Source of the DNA: Planctomycetia bacterium
GTDB lineage: Bacteria; Planctomycetota; Planctomycetia; Pirellulales; JALHLM01
Assembly (NCBI GenBank): GCA_034440135.1
Contig: JAWXBP010000082.1
Span: forward strand, 1-45,257
Direction of reading: 5' to 3'
DNA: 45,257 nt
The position numbers and the translations under genes are program-made. A model generated the notes under the pieces. It was not told the origin of the DNA. It worked only from the letters and a program-made list of their open reading frames with translations, and did no database searches. Positions 7,037 through 35,911 of this stretch are shown here, one piece after another. How positions within the stretch are numbered: the stretch's first letter is position 1; each line of letters opens with the position of its first letter.

Positions 7037-8122
7037 ATGTTCGTGGAACTGGAAGATCTGGCTAAGTCGAGCGGCGAATGGCTGCGGGGCGAAGGTCCCG
7101 AGTCCGATATCGTCATCAGCAGCCGGGTGCGCCTCGCGCGTAACCTGGCTGAATTTCCGTTTGTGACGAAAGCCACGACGGCCGATCGCGCTGAAATTGA
7201 ACGCACGTTGCGCAACCACGTGTTGGGCATGCAAAAGTCGGGCGAGTTGCTGTACCTAAGCGTCGATCAGATGGCGGGCCTGGATCGCCAGTTTCTGGTC
7301 GAGCGGCATCTGATTAGCCGCGAACACGCCGAGGCCGAAGGCGCCCGCGGCGTGGCGATCGACGTGCGCGAGCAAGTCAGTCTGATGATCAACGAAGAAG
7401 ATCATTTGCGGATTCAGGTGTTGCACAGCGGGCTGAGCTTGCAGGCGGCGTGGGATCAGATTCGCCAGGTCGATGATGTCATCGAAAGCGGCGTGACCTA
7501 CGCCTTCAGCGAGCAGTTTGGCTATTTGACCGCGTGCCCGACGAACGTCGGCACCGGCATGCGCGTGAGCGTGATGCTGCACTTGCCGGCGTTGGTGATC
7601 ACACGGCAACTCGAAAAGCTGTTCCGATCATTGCAGAAGATCAACCTCGCTGTGCGCGGCCTTTACGGCGAAGGTTCGCAGGCGATGGGAGATTTCTACC
7701 AGATCAGCAATCAGATCACGCTGGGGCGTTCGGAAGACGACTTAGTGAAGCAAGTCGGCGACGTCGTGCCGACGATCATCGACTACGAGCGCAAAGCCCG
7801 CGACTTCCTCGTCAAGGAAAGCCACGAGAACCTGCACGACCGCGTGAGCCGGGCCTACGGCATTCTGCGCACAGCGCAGACGATCAGTTCCGAAGAAACC
7901 ATGATGCTGCTATCCAGCGTGCGGATGGGCATCAACCTCGGCCTGATCCGCGACCTGGAAATCCCCACGGTCAACAAGCTCTTCATCTACACGCAACCGG
8001 CGCACCTGCAAAAGATCAGCGGCGCGGAGCTCAGCACAGCCGACCGCAACATCGAACGCGCCCGGTTTCTACGCCGGCATCTCAATCCGGCCGATGGGCA
8101 AGGGGCGGCGGAGAAGAATTAA
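7037..8122 (+). CDS. mcsB: Protein-arginine kinase McsB
   Basis: 361 residues, the typical length. McsB phosphorylates arginine residues and so marks proteins for ClpCP degradation; it belongs to the phosphagen-kinase fold. Visible signatures are the nucleotide-binding SSRVRLARN stretch (28-36), the acidic NEED loop (119-122) and the conserved CPTNVGTGMR segment with Cys167. The C-terminal stretch beginning DRNIERARF resembles the RDxxRA allosteric phosphoarginine site of Bacillus McsB. Downstream of mcsA in the same direction, likely one operon from the 6356 promoter. Confidence 0.95.
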   Translation: MFVELEDLAKSSGEWLRGEGPESDIVISSRVRLARNLAEFPFVTKATTADRAEIERTLRNHVLGMQKSGELLYLSVDQMAGLDRQFLVERHLISREHAEAEGARGVAIDVREQVSLMINEEDHLRIQVLHSGLSLQAAWDQIRQVDDVIESGVTYAFSEQFGYLTACPTNVGTGMRVSVMLHLPALVITRQLEKLFRSLQKINLAVRGLYGEGSQAMGDFYQISNQITLGRSEDDLVKQVGDVVPTIIDYERKARDFLVKESHENLHDRVSRAYGILRTAQTISSEETMMLLSSVRMGINLGLIRDLEIPTVNKLFIYTQPAHLQKISGAELSTADRNIERARFLRRHLNPADGQGAAEKN

Positions 8123-20223: not shown

Positions 20224-20802
20224 TCACTTCCACCGCGGCACCGGTTTGATCACCTTCGCCGGCACGCCGGCCGCCAGCATGCCGGCCGGGATATCCCGGA
20301 TCACCACCGACCCCGCCGCGATCACCGCACCAGCGCCGATCGTGACGCCCTTCAGCACCGTCACGTTGCAGCCGATCCAGACGTGGTCTTCGATCACGAT
20401 CGGCGCGGAGTTCGGCTCGAAGGTTTCGCCATCGAAGCTCATGTGGTGCAGATCGCAATCCAGGATCGTGCAGTTCCAGGAGATGGCACAATCCTTGCCG
20501 ATCGAAATGCTCTTGTGCGCCATGATCCGCGTCTCGTCCCAGACTCGCGTATGATCGCCGATCGTCAGCGGCACGATCTCGCCGGCTTCGTGGCTCACCG
20601 CTTCGATATAGACATTGCGGCTCAACTTCGTGAGATGGCCCAGCTCAATCCTCCCGCCACGGCATTGGCACCGCACCTTGGGATGCACAACCGGCCAACC
20701 AGGACTGCACCCGCGCAACCGCCACCAAGCGCCGCGCGCAAGGCCGAGCACGGCCGCTATTTGCTTACCTGGATGGTACTGAAAAAACTGCTGCCACTTC
20801 AT
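20224..20802 (-). CDS. Left-handed beta-helix O-acyltransferase
   Basis: 192 residues. Hexapeptide-repeat acyltransferase of the WcaF/maltose-acetyltransferase type, with repeats such as IGDHTRV, IGKDCAI, IGCNVTV and IGAGAVIAAGSVV and a C-terminal GVPAKVIK typical of the family. Probably acetylates or acylates a sugar hydroxyl from acyl-CoA. Last gene of the ten-gene minus-strand run, after a 183-base gap that holds a palindromic repeat. The start ATG 20802 has no strong ribosome site. Acceptor not identified. Confidence 0.85.
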   Translation of the reverse strand: MKWQQFFQYHPGKQIAAVLGLARGAWWRLRGCSPGWPVVHPKVRCQCRGGRIELGHLTKLSRNVYIEAVSHEAGEIVPLTIGDHTRVWDETRIMAHKSISIGKDCAISWNCTILDCDLHHMSFDGETFEPNSAPIVIEDHVWIGCNVTVLKGVTIGAGAVIAAGSVVIRDIPAGMLAAGVPAKVIKPVPRWK

Positions 20803-20985: not shown

Positions 20986-21627
20986 TTACGCGGTGAACAG
21001 GCGTTTGTGTTGGCCGGGGACGCCGAAGACGAGCGTGTGCGGCTGCGTGTTTTGGCTGACCAGTGAGTTGGCGCTGATCTTCGAATGATGTCCCACGCGG
21101 CGGGACGGCGTGACCGTGGAGTGCGTGCCCATGAAGACTTCTTCCTCGATCACGGCGAACCCGTTCAACGTGGCGTAGGGACAGAGCACGCTGTAGGCGC
21201 CGACGTGCGCGTCGTGCCCGCAGGAGGCATAGAAGTTTAGCATGGCGAAATCGTCCACGCGGACGCTGTCGCTGACCGTCACAAACGGGCAGATCACCAC
21301 GCCAGTCCCGAGTTTCGCGGTATTGCAGACAATCGCCGTGGGATGAACCAGCCGCTCGAATTGCGCGCCTTTCGCCACGAGGGCGTCGATCAACCGGCGC
21401 TTGACGTCGATTAAGCCGATCGCGAACAGCAAGCGATCGTTGGCCTGCGGGACGTAATCCATCGGGTCGCCGATGATCGACGCCTTGATCTCAAAGCCGT
21501 CGAGGTCCGTCGGCTTGGCCGACAGAAAGCCCTTGATGCGATACTGTTCCGCGGCAAAACAATCCCGCGCCCAGTGATACATCTCGCGGCCAAACCCGCC
21601 GGCTCCGACAATGACAAGATCTAGCAC
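20986..21627 (-). CDS. NeuD/PglD-like sugar acyltransferase
   Basis: 213 residues, GTG start (21627) behind AGGTG. The N-terminal Rossmann-like half starts VIVGAGGFGREM, and the C-terminal half is a left-handed beta helix with a GHDAHVGAY active-site histidine segment and the ending VFGVPGQ. This is the NeuD/PglD architecture, which N- or O-acetylates nucleotide or sialic-type sugars. Unlike the gene at 23864 it has no carrier-protein tail. Same strand and run as the neighbouring polysaccharide genes. Confidence 0.85.
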   Translation of the reverse strand: MLDLVIVGAGGFGREMYHWARDCFAAEQYRIKGFLSAKPTDLDGFEIKASIIGDPMDYVPQANDRLLFAIGLIDVKRRLIDALVAKGAQFERLVHPTAIVCNTAKLGTGVVICPFVTVSDSVRVDDFAMLNFYASCGHDAHVGAYSVLCPYATLNGFAVIEEEVFMGTHSTVTPSRRVGHHSKISANSLVSQNTQPHTLVFGVPGQHKRLFTA

Positions 21628-21809: not shown

Positions 21810-22538
21810 TCACACCGTCGAACCGCCGTCGATCGTGATGACCTGACCGGTGATGAACGCCGCTCCCGGAGAGAGCAGGAACTCGACGCAGGGGACGATG
21901 TCCGCGGGTTTGCCGAGTCGGCCAAGTGGCGTGCGTCGAATGATCTGGTTGCGTTGATGGTCATTGAGGCCGTGCGACATTTCGGTTTCGAGGTAGCCCG
22001 GTGCGATGGCGTTGACGCGGATGTTCTTGGGGCCGAGTTCCCGAGCGAGTCCCAGCGTCATGCCGATCTGTCCGGCTTTCGTCGCGGCGTAGGCGGACAG
22101 TCCGGAGAAGCCGCGTTTGGCGATGATCGAACTGATGTTGATGATCGAACCCGCGCCGGCCAGCAACATGATGCGCGAACATTCTCGCGCCAAGAGCAAC
22201 GACGCGCGGAGGTTGATGTCGAGCATCTGGTCGATGCGATCGTCGCTCATCGTGGCCAGCACGCCGTCGTGCGCCAGGCCGGCATTGTTCACCAGGGCGT
22301 CGATGCGGCCGTACTTCTCATGCACGGCCGTAACGAACGTCCGCATCGCGTTGGAGTCCGTCGCGTCGACTTCGCGATAGAACAACCGCTCCTGGTCGAT
22401 CGCCTGCAATTCGTCGATCGTCGCGGTCCGTTTGCGGCTGAACGTGGCGACGATATCGCCCAGCGCATGAAAGCGCCGTACAAAGGCTTCGCCCAGGCCG
22501 CGGCTTCCGCCTGAGATGATGATTACGCGTGGCGACAA
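21810..22538 (-). CDS. FabG-like SDR oxidoreductase
   Basis: 242 residues. Classical short-chain dehydrogenase, similar to 3-oxoacyl-ACP reductase. NAD(P)-binding motif SGGSRGLGE (9-17), NNAG (84-87), catalytic Ser136/137, Tyr150 and Lys154 (YAATK). The start is TTG at 22538, supported by a strong GGGGAGGAG located inside the end of the preceding AMP-ligase gene. The TTG lies three bases after the ligase stop. In context it most likely reduces a keto group on an acyl chain bound to the fused carrier protein two genes upstream, or on a sugar; the first is inferred from the ligase and carrier neighbours. Confidence 0.88.
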   Translation of the reverse strand: MSPRVIIISGGSRGLGEAFVRRFHALGDIVATFSRKRTATIDELQAIDQERLFYREVDATDSNAMRTFVTAVHEKYGRIDALVNNAGLAHDGVLATMSDDRIDQMLDINLRASLLLARECSRIMLLAGAGSIINISSIIAKRGFSGLSAYAATKAGQIGMTLGLARELGPKNIRVNAIAPGYLETEMSHGLNDHQRNQIIRRTPLGRLGKPADIVPCVEFLLSPGAAFITGQVITIDGGSTV

Positions 22539-22541
22539 GAT

Positions 22542-23867
22542 TCAAGCTCCTCCCCGGGCAATTTTTCCGGCGTCATTCACGGCTAGCCTCTCGACAAACC
22601 GCAATTGCGCTGGCACTTGATATTTCACTAACTCGCGGCGGCAGGCGGCGAGCACCGCGTCGCGCAGACCTTCGGCGGGCGGCTGCGCGGCAGGCTCGAT
22701 TTCCGCGCCGACCAATTGACCGACGATCGAACTCGGCACCGGATGCACGCGGACTTCGCGCACGCCGGGCACCGCGCGGATGACGCGTTCCACGTCGGCC
22801 GGAAACACCTTCGCGCCGCCGACGTTAATGCACTCCGTACGCCGTCCGACAAAATACACGCGATCGCCGTCCTGACGGACCATGTCGCCGGTAGCGAACC
22901 ACGGCTCGCGCGCGGCGCCTGCTTCTCCGAGATATTCTTTCATCGCCCGTTCGGAGGCGATCCACAATTCCCCGTCGTCGGCGATTTTCAACCGCGTCGG
23001 CAACGAAGGATCGTCAAGGAACGACGCCGGGAAACCGGCGCGGCCGTCATTGACGACAAAGCAGGTTCCCATTTCGGTGGAAGCATAGATGTGACTGATT
23101 CGCGCCTGTGGAAAGGCAGCTCGCAAGCGATCCAACACGCCCTGATCGACCGCTTCGCCGCCGAGCGTGATCTGCGTGAGCGCGCAACTGGCCAATTCTT
23201 CCGAAGTGGCCGCGCCTAACAACATGCGCCAGAACGTCGGGGTGCCGGAGGCAAATTCGACGCGGTCGTCGCGCAGGGAGCGCAAGACGTCTTGCGGATC
23301 GCGCGACGCCGGCGCACATAGGGTTCCGGCCGTGGCGATTGATTGCAGCATCACTTGCAAGCCCGCGAATCGCGCCAGGTCGTACGCCAGCAGCCACCGG
23401 CGACCCATATTCTGCGCACGGCGACTTACTGCCGCACTGAGACTTTGCCAACTATGCACGGCCGGTTTCGGCGGTCCACTGGTGCCGGAGGTGAACAACA
23501 CCACGCTGCCAGGCTCGCCAGCTTGTGCGGGTTCGCTCGTTTGTTCAAGGCTCTTCGAGAGTTCATCGCCGACGATCTCGGCTAAGCCGCATTGCGCTCG
23601 CAATGCATCGACCGCGGCGGGCGACAGGCTCGAAGGAAGCAGGAACGCGGCTGCGCCGATGCGATCGAGCGCCACCAGTAGCGCGATTTGTCGCTCGGCG
23701 CGACGGCAAGCGATGCCGACTCGCTGTCCATGCCATTGCGAGCGGACGGAGGCAATCTGATCGGCTGCCGCGGTCAACTCCGCGTAAGTCCACGCGCCGC
23801 CGGACCAACGAACGGCCGTGGAGTCCGCATGTTCGCGCCGGGCGTCGTCGACAAGATGGCTGATCAT
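22542..23867 (-). CDS. AMP-forming acyl ligase (acyl-CoA/ACP synthetase family)
   Basis: 441 residues from ATG 23867, which overlaps the stop of the NeuD-carrier gene as ATGA; the longer open frame upstream is just the opposite reading of that gene. ANL-superfamily motifs are present: P-loop FTSGTSGPPK (125-134), YASTEMGT (261-268), TGD (326-328), GRRTECINVGG (341-351) and the C-terminal catalytic Lys435 in NDAGKI. At 441 residues it is shorter than most acyl-CoA synthetases, with a trimmed N-terminal subdomain. It adenylates a carboxylic acid and probably transfers it to the adjacent acyl carrier domain; the substrate is unknown. Confidence 0.9.
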   Translation of the reverse strand: MISHLVDDARREHADSTAVRWSGGAWTYAELTAAADQIASVRSQWHGQRVGIACRRAERQIALLVALDRIGAAAFLLPSSLSPAAVDALRAQCGLAEIVGDELSKSLEQTSEPAQAGEPGSVVLFTSGTSGPPKPAVHSWQSLSAAVSRRAQNMGRRWLLAYDLARFAGLQVMLQSIATAGTLCAPASRDPQDVLRSLRDDRVEFASGTPTFWRMLLGAATSEELASCALTQITLGGEAVDQGVLDRLRAAFPQARISHIYASTEMGTCFVVNDGRAGFPASFLDDPSLPTRLKIADDGELWIASERAMKEYLGEAGAAREPWFATGDMVRQDGDRVYFVGRRTECINVGGAKVFPADVERVIRAVPGVREVRVHPVPSSIVGQLVGAEIEPAAQPPAEGLRDAVLAACRRELVKYQVPAQLRFVERLAVNDAGKIARGGA

Positions 23868-24775
23868 TTGGCCACGTCCCGCAAGGACTCTTCGTAAACG
23901 GCGACTAACTCGCCAAAGCTGCGTACGGCGCCGCGGCCGGAACGGAACGGATCGAGCCCGACGCGTTGTTCCAGCGAGACCGTCATTACGGCCAGGTCCA
24001 GGGAATCGAGGCCGATGTTTCCCATCAATTGATCGGCGCTGGCAAAGACGCGCACGTCGCGGCCGGAGTCGCGGAGAATCGTGTTGATCACGTCGGCCAC
24101 GGTGTCTTGCACAGAGCTTTTCGCTGTAGCTGCCGCGGTGCTCGCGGGCGCGCTTTCGACGGGGAAATAGCGCTCGCGGCGCTGAATCTTCGCTGGCACG
24201 CCATAGGCGACGACCTCGTCCGGCAATTCCTCCACAACCGTCGCGCCTGCGCCGACCATCGTCCAAGCGCCGAGCGACAGCCCTTGAATGACGCACGCAT
24301 TGACGCCGATCCACGTACCCTCGCCAATGCGGACCGCGCCCCCCAAGCTGGCGCCGGGGCAAATCTGCACGAAGTCCCGAAGTTCGCAGTCGTGGTCGAT
24401 GCTGGCGTTTGTGTTCACGATCACGCCTTGGCCGATGCGCGCTCCCGGATTGATGACCGCGCCGGCCATCACCACCGTTCCAGCGCCGAGGTGTACGCCC
24501 GCGGCCACCACCGCGCGGGGATGCACCAGGCTCTTCATTCGCCAGCCTTGCTGCGCGAAGCGTTCCGTCGCCGACTTGCGCGTCTGTGGATTGCCGATGG
24601 CGACGATCAACTCGCCCGCCGCGCGGTTTAGAGCTTCCGCTGCGGTGAAGACCGGCAACCCGGCGAACTCCGGCGCGCCGACTTCACTTTCAATGAAGCC
24701 TTCGACCGTGGCGCCAGTCCCCCGCGCGATATCCAGCACTACCTTGGCGTGTCCCGCAGCACCGAAGATGAACAT
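23864..24775 (-). CDS. NeuD-type acyltransferase fused to acyl carrier protein
   Basis: 303 residues. Residues 1-200 form a NeuD/PglD protein: Rossmann start FGAAGHAKVV, hexapeptide repeats from about 90, putative catalytic His128 (SIDHDC) and the ending GVPAKI. A low-complexity linker (about 207-221, Ala/Ser/Thr) leads to an acyl carrier domain (222-303) with the phosphopantetheine Ser258 in GLDSLDLAVM and the usual LEQRVGLDPF helix. The protein could hold its own acyl donor instead of using acyl-CoA. It overlaps the AMP-ligase gene by four bases, which supports loading by that ligase. I do not know of a characterised NeuD of this layout. Confidence 0.9.
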   Translation of the reverse strand: MFIFGAAGHAKVVLDIARGTGATVEGFIESEVGAPEFAGLPVFTAAEALNRAAGELIVAIGNPQTRKSATERFAQQGWRMKSLVHPRAVVAAGVHLGAGTVVMAGAVINPGARIGQGVIVNTNASIDHDCELRDFVQICPGASLGGAVRIGEGTWIGVNACVIQGLSLGAWTMVGAGATVVEELPDEVVAYGVPAKIQRRERYFPVESAPASTAAATAKSSVQDTVADVINTILRDSGRDVRVFASADQLMGNIGLDSLDLAVMTVSLEQRVGLDPFRSGRGAVRSFGELVAVYEESLRDVAK

Positions 24776-24868: not shown

Positions 24869-25534
24869 TTAGTCCACAATCTCCCGCACCAATTCGAACG
24901 CTTCCGCCGCGTGGGCGTGGATGGTCGATCCCCGTAAATGTGCCAATGCCTTCAGGCATTCCAGCGATCTGGGACTGGGCGGTTGCTTGAGTTGGCTCGC
25001 ATAACAGGCCATGGCGTCGAGCTTGCGTTGCAACTGGCGTTCGATGTTCACGAACACGGTGGGAAAGAACATTGCCCCGTCGATCGGTGGCGTCCATTCG
25101 GTTTCCGACAGCGTCTCGTAACAGAGTATCTTGCGCACCGGGCAATTCGCTAGCGGGCGCGCGGCCACCAGGCCGGCATGGTAGACATGTCCGTGATCGG
25201 CATGGATATCGCCGTGATGCGGCAAGTACAGCACCGAAGGCTGCAGCTCATGAAACACTCGCGACAGCGCGTCTGCCAACTCATGCCGGGGCACGGTGTC
25301 GAGCCGCGGCGCAGGGAAGTCGAGAAACCGCACCCCCGCGACTCCCAGCACGCGATGCGCTTCGGCGAGTTCCGCTCGACCGCGCGCCACCAACTCCGCG
25401 GGAAACAACTCCGGAATCCCACGCGTGGCGATGACGACGTGTACTTCCGCCCCTTCATCGGCGTGCCGGGCCATGACCCCGCCGCAGCCGAGCACTTCGT
25501 CATCCATATGGGGCGCCACGACGACGACTCGCAT
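24869..25534 (-). CDS. PIG-L family zinc deacetylase
   Basis: 221 residues. LmbE/PIG-L N-acetylglucosaminyl deacetylases hydrolyse N-acyl groups on sugars with zinc. The metal motif AHMDDE (about 8-13) and the HHGDIHADH stretch with catalytic His residues are present, as is a late His (HAHAAEAF). The start is ATG 25534; its A is shared with the preceding TGA stop (TGATG), so translation is coupled to the formyltransferase-like gene. A GTG at 25537 is possible. Likely sets free an amine that another enzyme of the run then acylates or formylates. Confidence 0.92.
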   Translation of the reverse strand: MRVVVVAPHMDDEVLGCGGVMARHADEGAEVHVVIATRGIPELFPAELVARGRAELAEAHRVLGVAGVRFLDFPAPRLDTVPRHELADALSRVFHELQPSVLYLPHHGDIHADHGHVYHAGLVAARPLANCPVRKILCYETLSETEWTPPIDGAMFFPTVFVNIERQLQRKLDAMACYASQLKQPPSPRSLECLKALAHLRGSTIHAHAAEAFELVREIVD

Positions 25535-26562
25535 CACGATGGCGCTCCGGCCGGGTGCAACTGGGCTTCCAACAGCGCGACTCGCTCCCGCAGCGATTCG
25601 ACTTCATGGTGCAGACGGACGACTTCATCCTCCAGATCGACGCCGAGCTTCACGCCGACGCTCAACCGCGCCGCTGGCGCATCGGCCGGCCATTCCACTA
25701 CAGTGAGCCAGAGCAATCCATCGCCGCATTGAACGAGCGCGCCACGTTCGGCATCAACGTCCAGAATTCTCCCCGGCACGCCGCGGAACGGCGTCGTGCG
25801 ATCGACTTCCGCGCGCCAAAGGATGAGTTTTCGCCGGCGGACAAAAGTGTAAGCGCCGGGATGCGGCCGAGACGCGGCGCGAATCAAGGCGTGAATGCGT
25901 TCCGCTGAGTCGCGCCAATCGATCAGGCCGTCTTCCGGACCGCGTTTGCCGTGATAGCTCGCAAGTGCATCGTCTTGAGGCCCCGGGTTCCATTCGCCAT
26001 TTAATAAACTTGGCAGCCAGCGATCCAGGGCGCGATCCAAGGCGTCTTCGGTTTTCGTGACGACATCTTCGGCGTAGTCCGCCGACGTGACATCGAAGGG
26101 CTCTTGGACGAGGATCGGTCCGGAATCCGCGCCGTCGTCCATCAGGAAGAACGTCGCGGCGCCGGGCGTGCCGTCGAGCGTCAACCAGGCGATGGGCGCC
26201 CGGCCGCGTCCCTTGGGTAAATGTGTTGGATGAAAGCCCACGCAACCGCGCGTTGGGACAGCCAAGAGCTCTGGCTTCACAAGTTGTGACAACCCTACGA
26301 CGAACAACAAATCCGGCTGCCAAGCGCGGACCTGCTCGATAATTTCCGGGGCGTTGATGTTGCGGAAGGTCGAGCAAGGTACATTGGCCTTCGCCGCCTC
26401 GTCCGCTAATCGCGCGAATCCGCTCACTTGAGGAGCGATTTCGTCCGTCAATTCCAATACGCCCACGACCGCAGCGCCATGGCGCAACAGGGCTTCGAGC
26501 GTGCGGCGCGAACTGCCGACGCTGCCTGCCAGCACGATTCTTGGCGAAGCGGCCTGATTCAA
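25534..26562 (-). CDS. Formyltransferase-like protein (methionyl-tRNA/sugar type) with atypical active site
   Basis: 342 residues, TTG start (26562) overlapping the previous stop as TTGA. The N-terminal half (about 5-200) is the Fmt/ArnA-type formyltransferase fold with LPKGRGRAP and DDGADSGP, whose Asp matches the catalytic Asp. The usual Asn-x-His is replaced by Gly-Phe-His (GFHPT). A C-terminal Fmt_C-like barrel (about 215-300) and a terminal coiled coil (about 310-337) follow. Sugar N-formyltransferases of O-antigen pathways have this architecture, and the neighbours suggest an amino-sugar substrate. The Asn loss may reduce or change activity. Confidence 0.82.
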   Translation of the reverse strand: MNQAASPRIVLAGSVGSSRRTLEALLRHGAAVVGVLELTDEIAPQVSGFARLADEAAKANVPCSTFRNINAPEIIEQVRAWQPDLLFVVGLSQLVKPELLAVPTRGCVGFHPTHLPKGRGRAPIAWLTLDGTPGAATFFLMDDGADSGPILVQEPFDVTSADYAEDVVTKTEDALDRALDRWLPSLLNGEWNPGPQDDALASYHGKRGPEDGLIDWRDSAERIHALIRAASRPHPGAYTFVRRRKLILWRAEVDRTTPFRGVPGRILDVDAERGALVQCGDGLLWLTVVEWPADAPAARLSVGVKLGVDLEDEVVRLHHEVESLRERVALLEAQLHPAGAPS

Positions 26563-27161
26563 GTTCCAACCCCGTTTGGTTTCGACAGCCGTTGTAGGAA
26601 GCGTTCTTCGCCGCGAAGGATGACGCCGATGGTTCTGAGGAGAATCGCCACATCGAGTGCCAGCGATACGCGTTCGACGTAGTCGACATCCCAGTCCCAG
26701 CGCTCCGGCCAGGAGAGATAGGTATTGCCATTCACTTGCGCCAGCCCGGTCAGTCCTGGCCGCACCAGCAACCTGCGGCGGCTATGTTCGTCATATTCCT
26801 CGATCTGTCGCGGCAACGCCGGCCGCGGCCCCACGATCGACATCTCGCCTGATAAGACATTAATCAGCTGGGGCAACTCATCGATCTTGAAACGTCGCAG
26901 CCAGTAACCCACGCGGGTCACCTCGGCGTCACGACCGTAAATCTCTTTGTCCGGCACACGCGGCCAATCGGTCATCGTGCGAAACTTGTACGCCCGAAAG
27001 GTGCTTCCGTTCCGTCCCAGCCGATCCTGCAAGAACAGGATCGATCCCCGCGAATCCAAGCGCACCAGCAACGCCACGATTGCCAACAACGGCGCGCTCA
27101 GCAGCAAGATCGGCAAGGAGATCGCAAGGTCGAGGGCGCGTTTTCCGATCGTGGAATACAT
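26559..27161 (-). CDS. PglC-like phosphoglycosyl transferase
   Basis: 200 residues. Small monotopic sugar-phosphate transferase: one membrane-embedded N-terminal helix (about 10-33), then the catalytic core with YKFRTM, the Asp94-Glu95 dyad in KIDELPQL and LSGEMSIVGPRP (104-114). It moves sugar-1-phosphate from a nucleotide sugar onto undecaprenyl phosphate, the first membrane step of glycan assembly. Length is that of PglC/WecA-independent small enzymes rather than WcaJ. Overlaps the formyltransferase gene by four bases. Confidence 0.95.
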   Translation of the reverse strand: MYSTIGKRALDLAISLPILLLSAPLLAIVALLVRLDSRGSILFLQDRLGRNGSTFRAYKFRTMTDWPRVPDKEIYGRDAEVTRVGYWLRRFKIDELPQLINVLSGEMSIVGPRPALPRQIEEYDEHSRRRLLVRPGLTGLAQVNGNTYLSWPERWDWDVDYVERVSLALDVAILLRTIGVILRGEERFLQRLSKPNGVGT

Positions 27162-27347: not shown

Positions 27348-28967
27348 TCAAGCCGACGTCCGCTCCCGCTCCCCGGAAATTTCGTTGATCAGCTCCTTCG
27401 CCCAGTTGCTCTTGCTGAAGTTGCTGGCGCCCCCTTCTTTGAGGAACTTGACGTTGCTGTACCGGGCTTCGGTGTAGTTCTCGACATCGCCGTTCGAGAT
27501 CGCTTCCAGCACCTGCTGGATGCCCATCGCCACGGTCCATTGCGGCTCGAAGCCGAGCTGCTTGCGAATCTTCGCAAAGCTGACGCGATAATTCCGCTTA
27601 TCGGTGTCGTCGGAGTTGATCAGTAACTCCGCGGCCAGGACCTGTTCGTGAACCATCTTGTCGATGTCGGTGATCGTGTAGTTCTGCTCGTCCGAGCCGA
27701 CGTTGTAGATTTGGCTGCCCACTACGTCGAGTGGGGCGTCGAGAACCTTTGCCACGGCCAGCGCGGCGTCGTCGACATGCACGAACGGGCGCCATTGATC
27801 GCCGCCAAAGACGGTAATCTGGCCGTCCATCTTGGCCTTGGCCGTCAGCAGGTTCACCACCAGGTCGAACCGCGTTCGGCCGGAGAGGCCGTAAATCGTG
27901 GCGAAACGCACGATCGACGGGCGGAAATCGTCATTCGCCATGCCGAGCAGCACTTTTTCGGATGCCAGCTTGGTGTGGCCGTACAGCGAGATGGGGCGCA
28001 CCACGGAACGCTCGTCGAGCGTTTCGTCCGTGGCCCCGTAGACGGAACAAGTGCTGGCAAAGATGAAACGTCCCACGCCGGCGCTTTTGGCCAACTCGGC
28101 GATCATCCGCGTCGCGGACAGATTGACGTCAATCGTCAAGTCTTCGTCCAGGCTGCACGCAGGATCGCCGACGATGGCGCCTAAATGCACCACGGCGTCG
28201 ACGTCCTGCATCGCTTCGACAACTTTTTCCACATGGCGGAAGTCGCCGTGAATGATCTCCAACTTCGGGTGATCGAGCAACGCCGCGATCGGTTCTTCGC
28301 CAAACAGAAGTTGGTCCAGCAGGCGAACTTGATAGCCTTTGTTGAGCAACTTGGGGAGCAACGCCGAACCGATGTAGCCGGCGCCGCCAATCACCAGAAT
28401 CCGCTTTTCGCCGCGACGAGCCCGCAACTCGGCGTCTTGTTCCGGCTGAACATAGCGTTTCCACGCAGAACTCCACAATCGGGCGGCGATCATAAACACG
28501 ATCGTCAGCACCCAGGCCATGACATATGCCCCGCGCGACGTCAGTCGCATTTCGCCGAACAGGAACGGGACCATGAACCCGTAGATCAGATAGCTCAGAC
28601 TGACCGCTTGGGCGATGATCGCTGCCTTGTAGCGGCTCTGGTAGGCGCGGCCGTAGGTATAGAAGCCGCTCAAGTAGAACACGGCCAGGCAGATCAGCGT
28701 GATCGCCCAGCCGTTGCTGGCGAAGTCGCCGATCAACTCGGAGAAGCGGCTGTCGGCCAGGGGCGATGCGTCGCGCTTTTGGAACAACGTGGCGACCACA
28801 AAGCGCAGCGTGAGCGCCGTAAGCAGCGCCAAATGAATCAGCGCGGCGTCGGCCGCCATGCGGAGAATCGTGCCCGCTGAAAACTTGAACCTCGAAGGTA
28901 ACACGCGTTGTCGCTCCCGGTTGTGGACTTTCTCGCTTCGTTGCGATCGGCGCTGCCCTTCCGCCAC
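27348..28967 (-). CDS. Membrane-anchored SDR (NAD-dependent epimerase/dehydratase)
   Basis: 539 residues, GTG start. Four membrane helices (about 32-170) of the kind found at the N-terminus of CapD/PglF or WbaP proteins precede an extended SDR (about 187-510) with IGGAGYIGS and the SLYGHTK motif (Tyr-x3-Lys) with a preceding ASTCSVYG. In CapD/PglF a first Rossmann domain sits between the membrane part and the SDR; here the SDR follows directly. The tyrosine is present, whereas PglF-type 4,6-dehydratases usually have Met, so an epimerase is as likely as a dehydratase. Acts at the membrane on a nucleotide sugar. Confidence 0.85.
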   Translation of the reverse strand: MAEGQRRSQRSEKVHNRERQRVLPSRFKFSAGTILRMAADAALIHLALLTALTLRFVVATLFQKRDASPLADSRFSELIGDFASNGWAITLICLAVFYLSGFYTYGRAYQSRYKAAIIAQAVSLSYLIYGFMVPFLFGEMRLTSRGAYVMAWVLTIVFMIAARLWSSAWKRYVQPEQDAELRARRGEKRILVIGGAGYIGSALLPKLLNKGYQVRLLDQLLFGEEPIAALLDHPKLEIIHGDFRHVEKVVEAMQDVDAVVHLGAIVGDPACSLDEDLTIDVNLSATRMIAELAKSAGVGRFIFASTCSVYGATDETLDERSVVRPISLYGHTKLASEKVLLGMANDDFRPSIVRFATIYGLSGRTRFDLVVNLLTAKAKMDGQITVFGGDQWRPFVHVDDAALAVAKVLDAPLDVVGSQIYNVGSDEQNYTITDIDKMVHEQVLAAELLINSDDTDKRNYRVSFAKIRKQLGFEPQWTVAMGIQQVLEAISNGDVENYTEARYSNVKFLKEGGASNFSKSNWAKELINEISGERERTSA

Positions 28968-29008: not shown

Positions 29009-30211
29009 TCATTCCACCAACGCCCGGCCCACTGCCGCGGCGTGTTCATGGATCTGTTGGATGGCCCGGCAAATGCCGATCACCACGTCGTCATCCATTC
29101 TGGACCAGATCGGCAGGCTCAAACTCACGTCTGCCAGCCAGTTTGTATTGTGCAAAGTTTCGGCGGAAGGAGCAAATCGCCGGTAAGCGCTTTGCTGATG
29201 CACCGGCGGCACCCAGTATTGCCGATTGTCGACGTTGTCGTGTTTGAGCGCTTTCGCCAGTTGGGGGGCGGTAAGGCCAAACTCCTGCGGGTTCACTGTA
29301 ATCGAGAAGTCTTTGTACGAGCAGCGATCACCGGGAAGAATGGTCTGGTAGCCCAGGCCCGGCACCGTTGCCAATTCGCGTTTGAACAATGCCACCAGCT
29401 CCTGCCGACGCTGCACCCCTTCCTCCAGCAACGTCAAACTACGCAGACCAACCAGAGCGTGCATTTCGCTCATCCGGGCGTTCAGCCCCGGGAACCGCGT
29501 GTCGTAGACCGGCACCATGCCATATTCACGTCCCACGCGCACATGCTCGGCCAGGTCGTCGTGATTCGTGGTGACAATGCCGCCTTCGCCGGCGATCAGC
29601 AGTTTGGTCGGGCTGAGGCTGAAACATTGAGCGTCCCCTTGTCCGCCGACCGGCTTGCCCTGATAAAGCGAGCCAAAGCCGTGCGCGGCGTCGTAGACGA
29701 CTTTCAGGTTATGCCGCTTGGCGACTGCTTCCAGCCGGTCGCAATCGACCGGATTGCCGAAATTATGTACGGCGACGATGCCGGTCGTCGCGGGCGTGAT
29801 CGCGGCTTCGACCGCCTCGGGGTCAATGCACTGAGTGTCCGGCAACACGTCCACGAACACGGGCCGGCAGTTGTTCCAGATGAGCGCGTTGACTGTGGCC
29901 ATGAAGGTGAAGCTGGGGACGATCACGTCGCCTTTCAGCCCCAGGCCTTGGTAGGAGAGCATCAGCGCGCTGGAACCGCTGGAGACCGCGAGCGCGTGTT
30001 TGCAACCGAGATGCTTCGCGACGGCTTCCTCGAAGGCCCGGAGATACTTGCCGCGGGTCAGCATCCGCGTTTGGAACATGTCTTCGAAGTCGGGCGCCAA
30101 TTCCGCAAAGCTGGGGAGCGCCGGCCGCACGATCGGAACCAGTTCCGGAAACAGCGGCGCGCCCCCCAAAATGGCCGGAAGCGTCGCGGGGGCCGACGTG
30201 GGCTGACTCAT
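29009..30211 (-). CDS. DegT/DnrJ/EryC1/StrS sugar aminotransferase
   Basis: 400 residues from ATG 30211, chosen because GCGGAG lies 9 bases upstream; an ATG at 30220 sits directly on that site. PLP-dependent enzyme that adds an amino group to a keto-sugar nucleotide. The PLP lysine is Lys203 (SLSPTKLL), the Asp binding the pyridine is Asp174 (VVYDAAH), and the GEGG and RMSEMHA stretches are typical. First gene of the minus-strand sugar run, 41 bases ahead of the membrane SDR. PglE and other aminosugar enzymes belong to this family. Confidence 0.93.
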   Translation of the reverse strand: MSQPTSAPATLPAILGGAPLFPELVPIVRPALPSFAELAPDFEDMFQTRMLTRGKYLRAFEEAVAKHLGCKHALAVSSGSSALMLSYQGLGLKGDVIVPSFTFMATVNALIWNNCRPVFVDVLPDTQCIDPEAVEAAITPATTGIVAVHNFGNPVDCDRLEAVAKRHNLKVVYDAAHGFGSLYQGKPVGGQGDAQCFSLSPTKLLIAGEGGIVTTNHDDLAEHVRVGREYGMVPVYDTRFPGLNARMSEMHALVGLRSLTLLEEGVQRRQELVALFKRELATVPGLGYQTILPGDRCSYKDFSITVNPQEFGLTAPQLAKALKHDNVDNRQYWVPPVHQQSAYRRFAPSAETLHNTNWLADVSLSLPIWSRMDDDVVIGICRAIQQIHEHAAAVGRALVE

Positions 30212-30767
30212 GCGTAACATCTCCGCGGTGGTTTCAAGGAAGTGACGCGTTACGTGGGACCAATCGTCCCCAACGGTGATTTTGCCAGGATATCCACGAA
30301 CTTTCGAGCCGTGTGCTGCCGGCGATGGTTCGATTGCAACCTTCGTGCCACCGTCCACAGGGCAGCACTTCGGCCGCAGGCAAATCCCTATGTGATGGAC
30401 ATTTGCGGTGGCCCGGCATGCTCGCGCTCACGTTCGATCGAGCACGAGGAGGTGGTAAAATCTCCCCAGCGCTGTGGATTCCCTGCCGCGTGCCCGGCGC
30501 GCAGCCCCTCCGGCGATTCCAGATTTACTACGCCTGGTGAGCGCAAATAGTTTGACAAGATTATTACTCGTCCGCCAATCCAATTCGATCGTCGCCGCGT
30601 ATCGATTCTGCGGGCGAGCGGCGCTTGTTCTGCCGGTTTCGCTCGCTAAATGATTGTGGCGGCGGAGTGGCCTCGGTTAGACTGAAAACTGGCTGGCTCA
30701 CGGGCGGAACCGGCTCATCAGCGGCTCTTCTGATTCTCGTCGACGGCTCGCAATAAGGGGCGATTGC
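30212..30767. other. Divergent intergenic region between sugar run and exosortase region
   Basis: 556 bases, the shared upstream of two opposite transcription units. It holds a TTGACA at 30552-30557 without a good -10 and a TAAAAT at 30456-30461 with a weak -35 (TTCGAT, 17-base spacer). No convincing gene, RNA or repeat was recognised. Confidence 0.4.
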
Positions 30768-31583: not shown

Positions 31584-32540
31584 ATGAATAAACCCGCGAC
31601 CGCTGCCGTGGCGCCTGCGACCGCCCAGCGCAGCATCACCGATCCGGATCAAATCTTGCCGTTTTCCATGCTGATCGGCCTCAGCGTGCTGCTGCTGATT
31701 GGCTTCGGCAAGACGATTTTCGACCTGTCGGACTATTGGTCCGATCCCCAGTACTCGCACGGCTATTTGGTGCCCTTATTTTCCCTGGTCTGGTTCTACC
31801 TGCGCTGGGAACCGATTGGCGACGTGCCCACTTGGGAACGCTGGTCGGGCGCCGCGCTCCTGGCGTTCGGGCTGGGGACCTGGCTGTTCGCCTCCTATCT
31901 CGGCGTTCCCTACATCGAGATGGTGGCGTTTTTGCCCTGCATCATTGGCGTCTTCCTGCTCGTGGGGGGCGTGAAGATTTTGCGTTGGGCCGGGCCAGGA
32001 CTGGGCATGATGATTTTCATGTACCCGCTGCCCGGCTTTCTGAACCGGGCGTTGCTGGTTCCTATGAACAAGTTCGCCACGATCGCCAGCACTTTCTGCG
32101 TGCAGACGTTGGGCATCGCTTCGTACCGCACCGGCAATACCATCAAGTTGCTCGGCCAGGACCTGAACGTCGTCGACGCTTGCAGCGGCCTCCGCATGGC
32201 CACGATCTTCCTGGCCATGGCGGTCGGCGTGGCGCTGTTGATCGAGCGGCCGATGTGGATGCGCCTGTTGGTTGTCGCCAGCGCGCTGCCGATCGCCATC
32301 ATCACCAACATGATCCGCATCGTGGTGACCGCCATCCTCTACAGCTTCGACTTGGGAGACTCCGCCCAGGCCGTGTTCCACGATCTGGCCGGCTACATCA
32401 TGCCAATCATTGCCCTCGGGTTTTTGTTCCTGTTCCTGCAAATCCTCGACAACCTGTTTATCACCGTGGAAACCGCGAAACCCAAGCTGGGCGCCGTGGG
32501 CCTGAAGCCGGCCATGAAGTTGAAAGGCTCAGGGGCGTAG
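31584..32540 (+). CDS. Exosortase (planctomycete XrtU-like)
   Basis: 318 residues, about eight membrane helices. Exosortases are transpeptidase-like proteins that cut proteins carrying a C-terminal PEP-CTERM-type tail and help attach them to the cell surface. The three catalytic residues are visible: Cys200 (VVDACSGLRM), Arg245 (NMIRIVVTA) and His266 (FHDLAGY), as expected for the family. Downstream genes (a Wzc-like copolymerase and an EpsI/DUF3485 protein) are the usual exosortase neighbours. No target protein with a PEP-type tail was recognised in the window. Confidence 0.92.
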   Translation: MNKPATAAVAPATAQRSITDPDQILPFSMLIGLSVLLLIGFGKTIFDLSDYWSDPQYSHGYLVPLFSLVWFYLRWEPIGDVPTWERWSGAALLAFGLGTWLFASYLGVPYIEMVAFLPCIIGVFLLVGGVKILRWAGPGLGMMIFMYPLPGFLNRALLVPMNKFATIASTFCVQTLGIASYRTGNTIKLLGQDLNVVDACSGLRMATIFLAMAVGVALLIERPMWMRLLVVASALPIAIITNMIRIVVTAILYSFDLGDSAQAVFHDLAGYIMPIIALGFLFLFLQILDNLFITVETAKPKLGAVGLKPAMKLKGSGA

Positions 32541-32672
32541 CGGATGTTGATGAACCACCACCGGGACGTTGCGTAGAATCAACATTCGGAATAGTACGGC
32601 CGGTGCCACGAAGGCGAAGAAACGATAGACGCGAGAGGACTTACGGCATTTTTCGGTACTTAGGCGTTGGCC

Positions 32673-32688
32673 TGGCATGTCGGTTGCG
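32673..32688 (+). promoter_or_regulatory. Sigma-54-like site before the Wzc-like gene
   Basis: TGGCATG (32673-32679), four bases, TTGCG (32684-32688), with the required GG-N10-GC spacing. The site is about 90 bases before the gene start. PrsK/PrsR sigma-54 control is known for some exosortase loci. The match is short enough to occur by chance. Confidence 0.42.
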
Positions 32689-32778
32689 AACGACCTGTCG
32701 ACGGGCCGAAACCTCGAGAACCGATCGTTCGGCGATTGAACCGCTCATCGAACTGCTCACTTTTGGGAGACTCGACAG

Positions 32779-35040
32779 GTGCTACCTCCGCAATCCAGCG
32801 ACGCTCCAGGGACTAGCGTAGTGCCCTCGAAATCCGCGGACGGCGCCGGAAATGGCGCCGGCACGCTTGTGCCCATCGGGCCGATGTATCCCATGCCCAG
32901 CCATTTGGCCTGGCCGGGCGCCGCGCCGGTGCGGCCGTCGTTTTTGACGTCTGGCCCCGACCCAATCACGTTGTTGCACGCCCTGCGGCGTCGCTGGTTG
33001 CCGGCCCTCGCGTGCGGCCTCGTCGCTTCCTTGGCCGTGGCGGCGCTGGCCTGGTTCTTGATTCCGGCCGATTACGAAGTCCAGGCCCTGTTCGAGGTGC
33101 AGCAGCAGGACAAAGGGGACATCATGGATGGTGCCAGCGGCCGCGGCAGCCGTGACGAGCACGACCTGTTCAAGAAATCGCAGCTGACCCTGGTGAAGAG
33201 CCCGCTGGTGCTCCAGGCGGCGCTGCGGCGCGAAGAAATCGCGCAGTTGCCGAGCATCAAAGCGAATCGCAACGATCAGGTGCGGTTTCTCAACGACGAG
33301 ATCATGGTGGACTACCCGGGCGGCGGCGACATTTTACGCATCCGCATGAAGGGCGAGAACGCCGACGAATTGGTCAAGTTGGTCGACGCCGTGAAGGACG
33401 CCTACACCAAGGAAGTCTTGGACAAGGAACGGCAGTTCAAGCAAAGCAAGCGCGATACGCTGCAACGAGAACTCTCGACGACGACCACCAAGCTCGCTCA
33501 GAAGTCTAAAGAAGAACTCAACCTCAGCCGAGACTTGAAGGCCGCTAGTTCCGACGCCGTGCAGTTTCAAATGCAGATCATGATGAACGAGTTGCAGGCC
33601 CTCCGCCGCGAGGAGCAGGACATGCAACGCGAAATCATCGGTTCCAGCCAGAAGATTGAAGAGCTCAAGGCCGTGAAGGAAAAAGCGGAAAACGCCGAGC
33701 CGAGCGCTTACGCCCTGCAACAGGTCTTAAAGAACAACCCAAGTTTCCAGTCGCTGCAGATGTCGATGCAATCCGTGGACGAGTCGATCCGGCAAACAAT
33801 GTCGGTGATTCCCGACCCCAATAGCCCGCGGGTGCAAGGTTTGACGAAGCAAAAGGCGGACATCGAAGCCCAAATGGACGAGTTGCGTCATGACGCCGCT
33901 GAGGAGGCCCAGGAGTTCATGATCGGCACGTCCAAGGGCGCGCTGGAGATCGACCAGCGAAATGCCGAATCCAGTTTGAAATCGCTGCAAGCGCAGCTTG
34001 CCTCGCTCCAAGCGGAAGGCAAGAAGATGTCCGAAGACCTCAATCTCTTGGGCGGTAACTCCGCCGACTTGATGGGTATCAAGCAGGAGGTGGAAACGCT
34101 CCGTATGCAATGGCAGGAGATGGACAATCAGCTCCGCATGATGACCTTGGAGCTCTCCGGCGACAATTCCCGCGTGAAATTGGTCATGTCCGCCCAGAAG
34201 CCCGAGGGGAACGAGTGGATCTTCAAGTACTTCCTCACCGGACTCTGCTCGGTGGGCGCGTTCGGACTGACGATGTTCGCCATCACGTACGGGGAATTCC
34301 AAGCCCGCCGCATCAGCACCGCCACGCAAGTGGCCGACGGCTTGGGCATGAAGGTCGTGGGCGCGTTGCCTTGCCTGGCAGGCAACAATGACGTCATGTT
34401 GCCGACGATCCTGAATGAATCGATCGATCGCGTGCGGACCCTGCTGCTGCACGCCACGAGCATGGACGGCACCAAGATCGTGATGGTCACCAGCGCCGTC
34501 GATCAGGAAGGCAAGACCACGGTCGCCAGCCAATTGGCAGCCAGCCTTGCGCGTTGCGGACGCCGCACGTTGCTGGTCGACGCCGACATCCGTAGCCCGT
34601 CGCTGCACGAACTGTTCGACATGCCGGCCGAGCCGGGCTTGTGCGAAGTGCTCCGCGGCGAACTGGAACTCGACGATTCCATTCGCCCCACCCGTCTGCC
34701 CGGCCTCTGGCTGCTGCCGGGCGGCCGTTGCGACGGCGAAGCAGTGCAAGCCCTGGCCAAGGATGCCATCGGCGGCGTGCTCGATGGCCTGCGGCCGGAG
34801 TTCGACTTCATCGTGCTGGATTCGGCCCCGGTGTTGACCGTGGCGGACTCGCTCTCGATCGGACAGCATGTCGACGCCACGATCGTCTCGGTCCTCAAGG
34901 ACGTCAGCCAAGGCGCCAAGGTGTTCGACGCCGTCGAACGCCTGCGAGGCGTCGGCATCAACGTGATGGGCGCCGTGGTGAACGGTGAAGCACAAAAGAG
35001 CCACCGCCGCCTGATCGACATGCAGCCGGCCGCCGCTTGA
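32779..35040 (+). CDS. Wzc-like polysaccharide copolymerase with BY-kinase domain
   Basis: 753 residues, GTG start. A Pro/Gly-rich N-terminal segment (1-58), a first membrane helix (about 72-94), a Wzz-type outer region with long coiled coil (about 210-470) and a second membrane helix (about 475-500) precede a cytoplasmic ATPase. Its Walker A is DQEGKTT (575-581), Walker A' LLVDAD (599-604), Walker B IVLDS (about 678-682). Such proteins set chain length and export of exopolysaccharide, being switched by tyrosine phosphorylation. The C-terminus ends LIDMQPAAA without a tyrosine cluster, so classical tail autophosphorylation is unlikely. Typical exosortase-locus copolymerase. Confidence 0.9.
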   Translation: MLPPQSSDAPGTSVVPSKSADGAGNGAGTLVPIGPMYPMPSHLAWPGAAPVRPSFLTSGPDPITLLHALRRRWLPALACGLVASLAVAALAWFLIPADYEVQALFEVQQQDKGDIMDGASGRGSRDEHDLFKKSQLTLVKSPLVLQAALRREEIAQLPSIKANRNDQVRFLNDEIMVDYPGGGDILRIRMKGENADELVKLVDAVKDAYTKEVLDKERQFKQSKRDTLQRELSTTTTKLAQKSKEELNLSRDLKAASSDAVQFQMQIMMNELQALRREEQDMQREIIGSSQKIEELKAVKEKAENAEPSAYALQQVLKNNPSFQSLQMSMQSVDESIRQTMSVIPDPNSPRVQGLTKQKADIEAQMDELRHDAAEEAQEFMIGTSKGALEIDQRNAESSLKSLQAQLASLQAEGKKMSEDLNLLGGNSADLMGIKQEVETLRMQWQEMDNQLRMMTLELSGDNSRVKLVMSAQKPEGNEWIFKYFLTGLCSVGAFGLTMFAITYGEFQARRISTATQVADGLGMKVVGALPCLAGNNDVMLPTILNESIDRVRTLLLHATSMDGTKIVMVTSAVDQEGKTTVASQLAASLARCGRRTLLVDADIRSPSLHELFDMPAEPGLCEVLRGELELDDSIRPTRLPGLWLLPGGRCDGEAVQALAKDAIGGVLDGLRPEFDFIVLDSAPVLTVADSLSIGQHVDATIVSVLKDVSQGAKVFDAVERLRGVGINVMGAVVNGEAQKSHRRLIDMQPAAA

Positions 35041-35049
35041 TTGCTACTA

Positions 35050-35133
35050 GCCCCGATAGGGGCGACAGACAATAGCCAGGGGTGACAACCCCTGGAAATA
35101 GAGGCAAACCAGAATCCCAAGCCCCATCGGGGC
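35050..35133. repeat. Cluster of three short GC-rich hairpins
   Basis: Three small palindromes lie at 35050-35063 (GCCCC-GATA-GGGGC), 35076-35095 (CCAGGGGT/ACCCCTGG-like) and 35121-35133 (GCCCC-ATC-GGGGC). Together they resemble a dispersed planctomycete intergenic repeat that I recall in similar wording. It lies between the Wzc-like and EpsI-like genes. Confidence 0.75.
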
Positions 35134-35185
35134 GCCACTTTCGACAGCCGCGACCAGCCACCCCGGCCCCTCCCCGAGTCACAAC

Positions 35186-35911
35186 ATGAACAAGCAAACC
35201 GCGCTCTGGATTCCCGTGGGCGTCGCGGCGGTGATGGTGATCGCCTCGTCGATCGTGCAAGGCTACTGGACGAATCGCTTCGGCGCGAAATCCGACAGCC
35301 AGATCGTCAAGGAGTTCGCGCAAAACCTGGAACGCGTGCCCAAGGTGATCGGCGAGTGGGAAGCCGTCGACCACCCGATGAACGCCCAGGAGCAGGAGGT
35401 CGCCGGCATCGTCGGTTATGTTTCGCGCGAATACCGTAACCCGCGTACCGACGAATCGGTAACCGTGATGCTGGTGTGCGGCAATTTCCGCAACATCGCC
35501 AAGCACGAGCCGACGCAATGCTACGTGGCCGCCGGCTACAACCAGGAGAAGGAAGTCGAGCAATACGAAACGAAGACCAAAACGTCGGTGGCGAATTTCA
35601 ACACCACGGTCTTCAAACTGGAAGATGAGAAGAAGCTGGAGCGCCTGCGGATCTTTTGGAGTTGGAACTACGACGGCGACTGGGTCTCCCCGACCTACGC
35701 GCGTTGGAGCCTGCGGGGTTTGCCGGCCCTGTACAAGCTCTATATCATCAGCCAGGTGCGTCCCGGCGAAGATTTGGAAGGCAGTACGGCGTTCCGGTTC
35801 ATTCAAGACCTGATCCCGGAACTGGACAAGCGGCTGTTCGTAGCGCCGCCCGCGGAGGGAGCCAAGACGCCCGCAAAGCCAATCGCGGAAAAGCCCGCCG
35901 AAAAGGCGTAG
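35186..35911 (+). CDS. EpsI/DUF3485 exosortase-associated protein
   Basis: 241 residues. One N-terminal membrane helix (about 7-27) anchors a DUF3485 (EpsI) domain that includes QCYVAAGY and YDGDWVSPTYARW. The family is found beside, and sometimes fused to, exosortases; its function is not established. The end (about 220-241) is an Ala/Lys/Pro-rich tail. Probably in the same transcription unit as the Wzc-like gene. A good terminator follows. Confidence 0.88.
   Translation: MNKQTALWIPVGVAAVMVIASSIVQGYWTNRFGAKSDSQIVKEFAQNLERVPKVIGEWEAVDHPMNAQEQEVAGIVGYVSREYRNPRTDESVTVMLVCGNFRNIAKHEPTQCYVAAGYNQEKEVEQYETKTKTSVANFNTTVFKLEDEKKLERLRIFWSWNYDGDWVSPTYARWSLRGLPALYKLYIISQVRPGEDLEGSTAFRFIQDLIPELDKRLFVAPPAEGAKTPAKPIAEKPAEKA

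Follow-up and report, generated by a model that had tools for sequence, protein, structure and literature searches.

A NeuD-type acyltransferase fused to an acyl carrier domain, with a candidate hydroxyacyl supply cassette, in a polysaccharide operon of the Pirellulales

What use would a sugar N-acyltransferase of the NeuD type have for an acyl carrier protein (ACP) of its own? The question is raised by a contig of 45,257 nucleotides from a member of the Pirellulales (Planctomycetia bacterium, GenBank assembly GCA_034440135.1, contig JAWXBP010000082.1), analysed at its full length and referred to here as the window. Its minus strand encodes a 303-residue protein in which a NeuD/PglD-type N-acyltransferase runs into an acyl carrier domain (23864..24775), an AMP-forming ligase of 441 residues (22542..23867) and a short-chain dehydrogenase/reductase (SDR; 21810..22538). 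All three genes lie where the original prediction, made from the sequence alone, had placed them. Our answer, to which we give a probability of roughly one half, is that this set is a dedicated supply cassette for hydroxyacyl-ACP, serving the N-acylation of an amino sugar in a surface polysaccharide or exopolysaccharide. Judged from the sequences, sugar N-acylation that depends on an acyl-ACP is probable. That the group is specifically an omega-hydroxyacyl, made by the MupS-type chemistry known from an antibiotic pathway, is argued by analogy and is more tentative.

The first step is to establish what the fused protein is. Residues 1–196 match the NeuD_NnaD model (TIGR03570) with 221 bits, well above the cut-off of 160.8, and the protein also matches Hexapep and PglD_N. 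The catalytic histidine, His128, lies within DHDC. After an Ala/Ser/Thr-rich linker, IQRRERYFPVESAPASTAAATAKSSV, comes the carrier domain (residues ~218–303; 23867..24124, minus strand), which belongs to a MacpD-like subfamily (GLDSLDLA...DPF) and has its attachment residue, Ser258, within GLDSLDLAVM. The fusion, the Ser258 motif, the four-base overlap with the ligase gene and the three-base gap before the reductase gene are all exactly as first described, and the key catalytic residues are present.

One test of the carrier domain, set beforehand, was a match to PF00550. This was narrowly failed, the isolated domain scoring 19.0 bits and the whole protein 15.7 bits against a cut-off of 20.8, but the result is overturned by the homologues and the fold. 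PF00550 is matched by 54 of 55 homologous ACPs at E<=0.01, and the attachment serine is invariant in the family (72/72). Against solved structures, the profile of this ACP family finds MacpD at 5e-16, together with dozens of other ACPs; MacpD, the partner ACP of mupirocin synthesis, is also the nearest solved relative by sequence. The AlphaFold model of the domain (pLDDT, the predicted local distance difference test, 91) shows an ACP fold, the serine standing where helix II begins. When this model was searched with Foldseek the best matches were nearly all ACPs, with probabilities near 1.00, none of them below an E-value of 1e-3. Modelled as a whole, the fusion has a well ordered ACP behind a linker (189–217) of very low confidence, and a NeuD part that resembles PerB and PglB structurally. 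Because of the homologue matches, the invariant serine, the family profile and the model, the C-terminus is a real ACP domain despite its sub-cut-off score. We also considered a response regulator domain (PF00072; 17.5 bits, cut-off 30.2), which is ruled out by the fold and the family.

Which enzyme, then, takes the acyl group from this carrier? The fused NeuD domain, NeuD1, has a neighbour downstream of the reductase, a second and divergent NeuD-type transferase that we call NeuD2 (20986..21627, minus strand) and that falls beyond the coordinates of the original prediction. We searched 397 Pirellulales genomes for the ACP and obtained matches in 73; 72 neighbourhoods were examined, and two loci of the fatty acid synthesis (FAS) type were excluded, so that 70 were counted. 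Forty-two of these, termed roomy, have at least 7 kb downstream of the ACP. The order ACP-ligase-SDR is found at 52/70 loci and at 33/42 roomy ones. A NeuD2-type transferase lies within 7 kb downstream at 30/42 roomy loci, 23 of which have no NeuD1 beside the ACP, while NeuD1 is fused to the ACP or just upstream of it at 7/42, each of them also with NeuD2. The catalytic histidine is kept in 38/38 NeuD2s. The best solved relative of NeuD2 scores only 60 bits, and it groups with other NeuDs that are located after an SDR, albeit weakly (55/91). That NeuD2 is the regular partner of the cassette ACP appears to be a new result.

These counts are the substance of the strongest alternative: NeuD1 would be an ordinary acetyl-CoA N-acetyltransferase to which the ACP is merely tethered, and NeuD2 or some other transferase would use the acyl-ACP. 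The pattern in which NeuD2 often occurs without NeuD1, and NeuD1 beside the ACP never without NeuD2, fits this account. So does the likeness of NeuD1 to PerB and PglD (135 bits to PerB), its position on the side of the tree that holds NeuDs found near aminotransferases, and the finding that one other genus has the ACP joined to a phosphoglycosyl transferase instead. On the other hand, NeuD1 immediately precedes the ACP in four other genomes and is fused to it at a further locus (L126), which suggests a functional tie. We put this alternative a little short of even. The original prediction had named the fused NeuD half as the transferase, but it is only one of two candidates. Since NeuD1 is found by the ACP in 7 loci only, and always together with NeuD2, the more constant partner is at least as likely to be the transferase, as far as sequence comparison can tell. 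The fusion nevertheless suggests that NeuD1 may still take acyl groups from the carrier in the two lineages where they are joined.

The supply-cassette reading leans on the reductase, and here again the first description needed revision. It had been called FabG-like, with a hydroxyacyl product in mind. The protein starts with TTG, three bases past the ligase stop and preceded by GGGGAGGAG, and has an intact Asn/Ser/Tyr/Lys catalytic set as well as an FSRK motif. It scores 221 bits against the FabG equivalog, below the cut-off of 297.75. Its best solved relative is MupS with 199 bits, the next scoring 165, and it is 45% identical to MupS and 35% to Escherichia coli FabG. The same tendency is seen in 63/67 of the SDRs from the cassette search, for which MupS is a nearer relative than each of the three FabGs used in the comparison. 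In a phylogenetic tree that also held E. coli FabG and 16 SDRs from this genome, the cassette SDRs cluster with MupS and TmlS, separate from all of these controls (100/99). On the tree and the score we reject FabG as the identity of this enzyme. The sample for the tree comprised E. coli FabG, the genome's own FAS FabG and its other SDRs, with few reference SDR families and some long control branches, and placement in the MupS/TmlS group is therefore a strong but not final assignment. An FAS cluster with FabG, ACP and FabF is encoded separately in the same genome, so the ACP and reductase of the cassette are extra copies dedicated to it. The proposal of a dedicated reductase holds, even if its type has changed.

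Between the carrier and the reductase lies the ligase gene, its ATG overlapping the TGA stop of the fusion (ATGA): AAATGATC. The assignment as an AMP-forming ligase is borne out by P-loop, A5, A7 and A8 motifs and by the catalytic lysine of NDAGKIARG. Against a profile of the TmlQ clade it reaches 197 bits, where controls from the same genome reach at most 108, and this is the top score among the cassette ligases that lie outside that clade.

If the reductase were nonetheless acting as a FabG, the product would be different. The ligase would load a 3-oxo acid (or fatty acid synthesis would provide acetoacetyl-ACP), the SDR would reduce it in the manner of FabG, and the NeuD half would transfer a 3-hydroxyacyl group, e.g. 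3-hydroxybutyryl. The chemistry has precedents, as N-(3-hydroxybutanoyl) amino sugars are known from several O-antigens and capsules (PMC8074265). Furthermore, the SDR belongs to the wider FabG-like superfamily, the related flagellin loci of Azospirillum have an added ketoacyl synthase III (KAS III), and two survey loci (L065 and L068) hold the ACP and SDR without a ligase. This route is doubtful in our view: the SDR sits with MupS and TmlS, outside FabG and below the FabG cut-offs, and the operon has no ketosynthase. Another possibility, that the cassette product primes lipid or polyketide synthesis and its sugar neighbourhood is coincidental, has homologous cassettes linked to polyketide synthases (PKSs) in Bradyrhizobium, Burkholderia and pTML1 to recommend it, but is very improbable given that neither a ketosynthase nor a PKS is found among the operon genes and that most relatives have the cassette set among sugar or polysaccharide genes.

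How might the hydroxyacyl supply cassette work? The genome encodes an AcpS-type phosphopantetheinyl transferase (PF01648), which would load Ser258. A short acid would then be adenylated by the ligase and attached to the carrier. If the ligase works as MupQ does, malonyl- or succinyl-CoA could serve as that acid and a CoA-acyl-ACP bis-thioester would result. Its reduction by the MupS-type enzyme would leave the carrier with a short acyl group, probably an omega-hydroxy one (3-hydroxypropionyl or 4-hydroxybutyryl). Finally, a NeuD-type hexapeptide enzyme would move the acyl group to the amine of a nucleotide sugar, either made by a DegT aminotransferase or freed by a PIG-L deacetylase. Of the two candidates for this transfer, NeuD2 is the one found more regularly; here the fused NeuD1 may carry it out, or share the carrier. 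Being tethered, the carrier would be more concentrated around the active site. Such sugars do exist in nature, an N-(4-hydroxybutanoyl) amino sugar having been reported from Idiomarina, to judge from a title cited in PMC8707391.

The genomic setting is compatible with this scheme. The set belongs to a run of ten genes that all read in one direction, from 30358 down to 20224, that is an amino-sugar/exopolysaccharide operon. Family profiles identify the first two genes as a DegT/DnrJ/EryC1 sugar aminotransferase, probably the maker of an amino sugar (29009..30358), and an NAD-dependent epimerase/dehydratase with an N-terminal extension (27348..28967). These are followed by a phosphoglycosyl transferase (Bac_transf; 26559..27161), an ArnA/Fmt-like formyltransferase whose substrate is probably a sugar (25534..26562) and a PIG-L family deacetylase that could free a sugar amine (24869..25537), all on the minus strand. 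Next come the NeuD-ACP fusion, ligase, SDR and NeuD2, and the run ends with a WcaF/WbbJ-like hexapeptide acyltransferase (20224..20802, minus strand). The conserved gene set within a polysaccharide operon is consistent with the hydroxyacyl transfer to an amino sugar that the original prediction envisaged. Its idea of a self-contained three-gene system has to be given up: the unit is larger, and elsewhere the ligase or the reductase is missing or apparently replaced. Beside the operon, on the opposite strand (31584-35911, +), is an exosortase-linked exopolysaccharide locus, which encodes exosortase EpsH together with a ParA-like ATPase domain protein and a DUF3485 protein. Farther away, at 7037-8122, the window contains a gene for an ATP:guanido phosphotransferase (McsB/arginine kinase-like).

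The relatives in the survey vary around this theme. The commonest gene just ahead of the ACP is the phosphoglycosyl transferase, and sugar or polysaccharide genes adjoin most cassettes. Four of the 70 loci (L116, L119, L121 and L075) have the order ligase-SDR-ACP, as in the thiomarinol cluster, with SDRs near MupS; they are possible PKS-type cassettes. At two loci (L018, 7498-9478, and L066, from 6723 onward) an FkbH-like HAD protein and a second ACP follow NeuD2, the ligase and SDR being absent. FkbH proteins load glyceryl groups, and the acyl source may therefore be interchangeable; this suggests an alternative supply at these two loci, perhaps of glyceryl. Two near-identical ACP-ligase-SDR cassettes stand ~6.7 kb apart at L085 (~7.8-17 kb), through tandem duplication or as an effect of assembly. 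Beyond the order, a class-wide search with 46 ACP sequences gave only FAS-level scores (~44-54 bits, compared with ~65-118 bits for the cassette ACPs), so that the high-scoring type was confined to the Pirellulales in that search. A phylum-wide search with 3 seeds gave, among the examined matches from outside the order, mostly FAS ACPs or unrelated loci.

Some observations weigh against the supply-cassette reading. NeuD1 is like the acetyl-CoA enzymes and may simply acetylate. The operon holds two NeuDs, a formyltransferase and a WcaF-like enzyme, which allows several pairings of donor and acceptor. The ligase is only ~30% identical to TmlQ and falls outside the TmlQ subclade in the tree. Finally, the cassette is not always complete: in addition to the two loci without a ligase mentioned above, three (L018, L066 and L067) lack both ligase and SDR.

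The fusion itself is rare, in answer to the concern that it might be commonplace. It is found in this genus and at one locus with a contig edge (L126). In a congeneric metagenome-assembled genome the fusion, ligase, SDR and NeuD2 form the same block in identical order, so the arrangement is not due to chance. A scan of GTDB with the ACP alignment, for which the search patterns were poorly chosen, returned the congeneric contig only. No plasmid record covered 80% of the fused protein, hence no fusion was found there. How the fusion could arise is illustrated by L018, from another member of the Pirellulales: NeuD and ACP are there encoded by two genes that share a frame and are parted only by TAG and three bases, and therefore the loss of one stop would join them. 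At L126 (1-651) the second NeuD1-ACP fusion is in frame; the contig begins inside the gene, and an internal methionine ahead of the ACP could permit a restart. Other fusions were seen nearby. In the genus g346 (L095, 1590-3479; L099, 1480-2598) the same type of ACP is attached to the C-terminus of a phosphoglycosyl transferase, and at L117 (12775-14784) a single open reading frame for 669 residues near the cassette joins a NeuD to a DegT aminotransferase.

The NeuD-ACP fusion appears to be new: we found no paper on a NeuD that is fused to or dependent on an ACP, in a literature search that mostly lay outside subscription journals. With the carrier tied to a sugar acyltransferase in this way, the pairing of donor and acceptor can be tested directly. 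The most elaborate version of our reading is a NeuD with its own acyl donor, where the MupS-type cassette would build an omega-hydroxyacyl on the fused carrier via a CoA/ACP bis-thioester, and the NeuD domain would pass it to a nucleotide amino sugar, either in cis or inside the trimer. This we regard as unlikely. If true, a covalently bound acyl donor would to our knowledge be without precedent in the NeuD family, and such a self-carried donor would imply Pirellulales exopolysaccharides with a hydroxypropanoyl or hydroxybutanoyl amide.

How does the system compare with those already known? The NeuD, PglD, PerB and VioB N-acetyltransferases share the fold, family profile and catalytic histidine, but are acetyl-CoA users without a C-terminal ACP. 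The tetronate system of Vibrio cholerae O1 includes a LuxC-type reductase, an iron alcohol dehydrogenase and another hexapeptide enzyme, and neither such a reductase nor such a dehydrogenase is found among the ten genes of the run. Its genes (wbeKLMNO = rfbKLMNO) are similar in combining a ligase with a carrier for sugar N-acylation; the ligase (WbeL/RfbL) and carrier (RfbK) are thought to supply the hydroxyacyl group for perosamine (PMC3441752, PMC12208996). The AasR-AcpR pair of sphingolipid synthesis also has a dedicated synthetase that loads a dedicated ACP for a downstream enzyme, although there the acyl is long-chain, the enzyme is serine palmitoyltransferase and no sugar is involved (PMC9386255).

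Flagellin glycosylation islands have the same three functions next to sugar genes, and these sets are already known: ACP, 3-oxoacyl-ACP reductase and AMP-synthetase genes in Aeromonas group II islands (PMC7874193), and ACP, CaiC ligase and FabG genes in the Enterobacteriaceae (PMC4875605). In the excerpts of these two papers that we drew on, their function is only guessed at (a 'liposugar'), LuxC and LuxE genes are present, with pse genes in Aeromonas, and no NeuD-ACP fusion is mentioned. No flagellin or pse gene was recognised in the ten-gene run, where the DegT protein falls below the PseC cut-off. The same triad is found in Azospirillum (ACP-ligase-SDR-KAS III between pseI and flagellin) and on plasmids of Qingshengfaniella and Haematobacter (acyltransferase-ACP-ligase-SDR beside sugar genes). 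Sets of this kind recur in exopolysaccharide and flagellin loci, and have hitherto been read as 'fatty acid synthesis'.

The closest chemical parallel is with antibiotics. An earlier study of mupirocin and thiomarinol reportedly found a bis-CoA/ACP thioester intermediate, the product of the thiomarinol set being 4-hydroxybutyryl-ACP. For mupirocin, malonyl-CoA is turned into a 3-hydroxypropionate starter by MupQ and MupS together with MacpD, which carries the starter (PMC10098928). In both pathways the ligase, SDR and ACP genes are adjacent, as for TmlQ-TmlS-TacpD on pTML1; their SDRs belong to the same clade as ours, and MacpD is the solved ACP nearest to ours by sequence. That said, these sets feed a PKS, have the order ligase-SDR-ACP and do not have the ACP fused to a sugar transferase, and TmlQ differs from the ligase here to the extent described above. 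The homologous triad also adjoins PKSs in Bradyrhizobium and probably in Burkholderia. The link between polysaccharide ACP cassettes and MupQ/MupS/MacpD chemistry appears to be new, and it leads to a concrete chemical prediction, namely omega-hydroxyacyl amides derived from malonyl- or succinyl-CoA. If true, one chemical cassette would serve both the starters of antibiotics and the glycans of cell surfaces.

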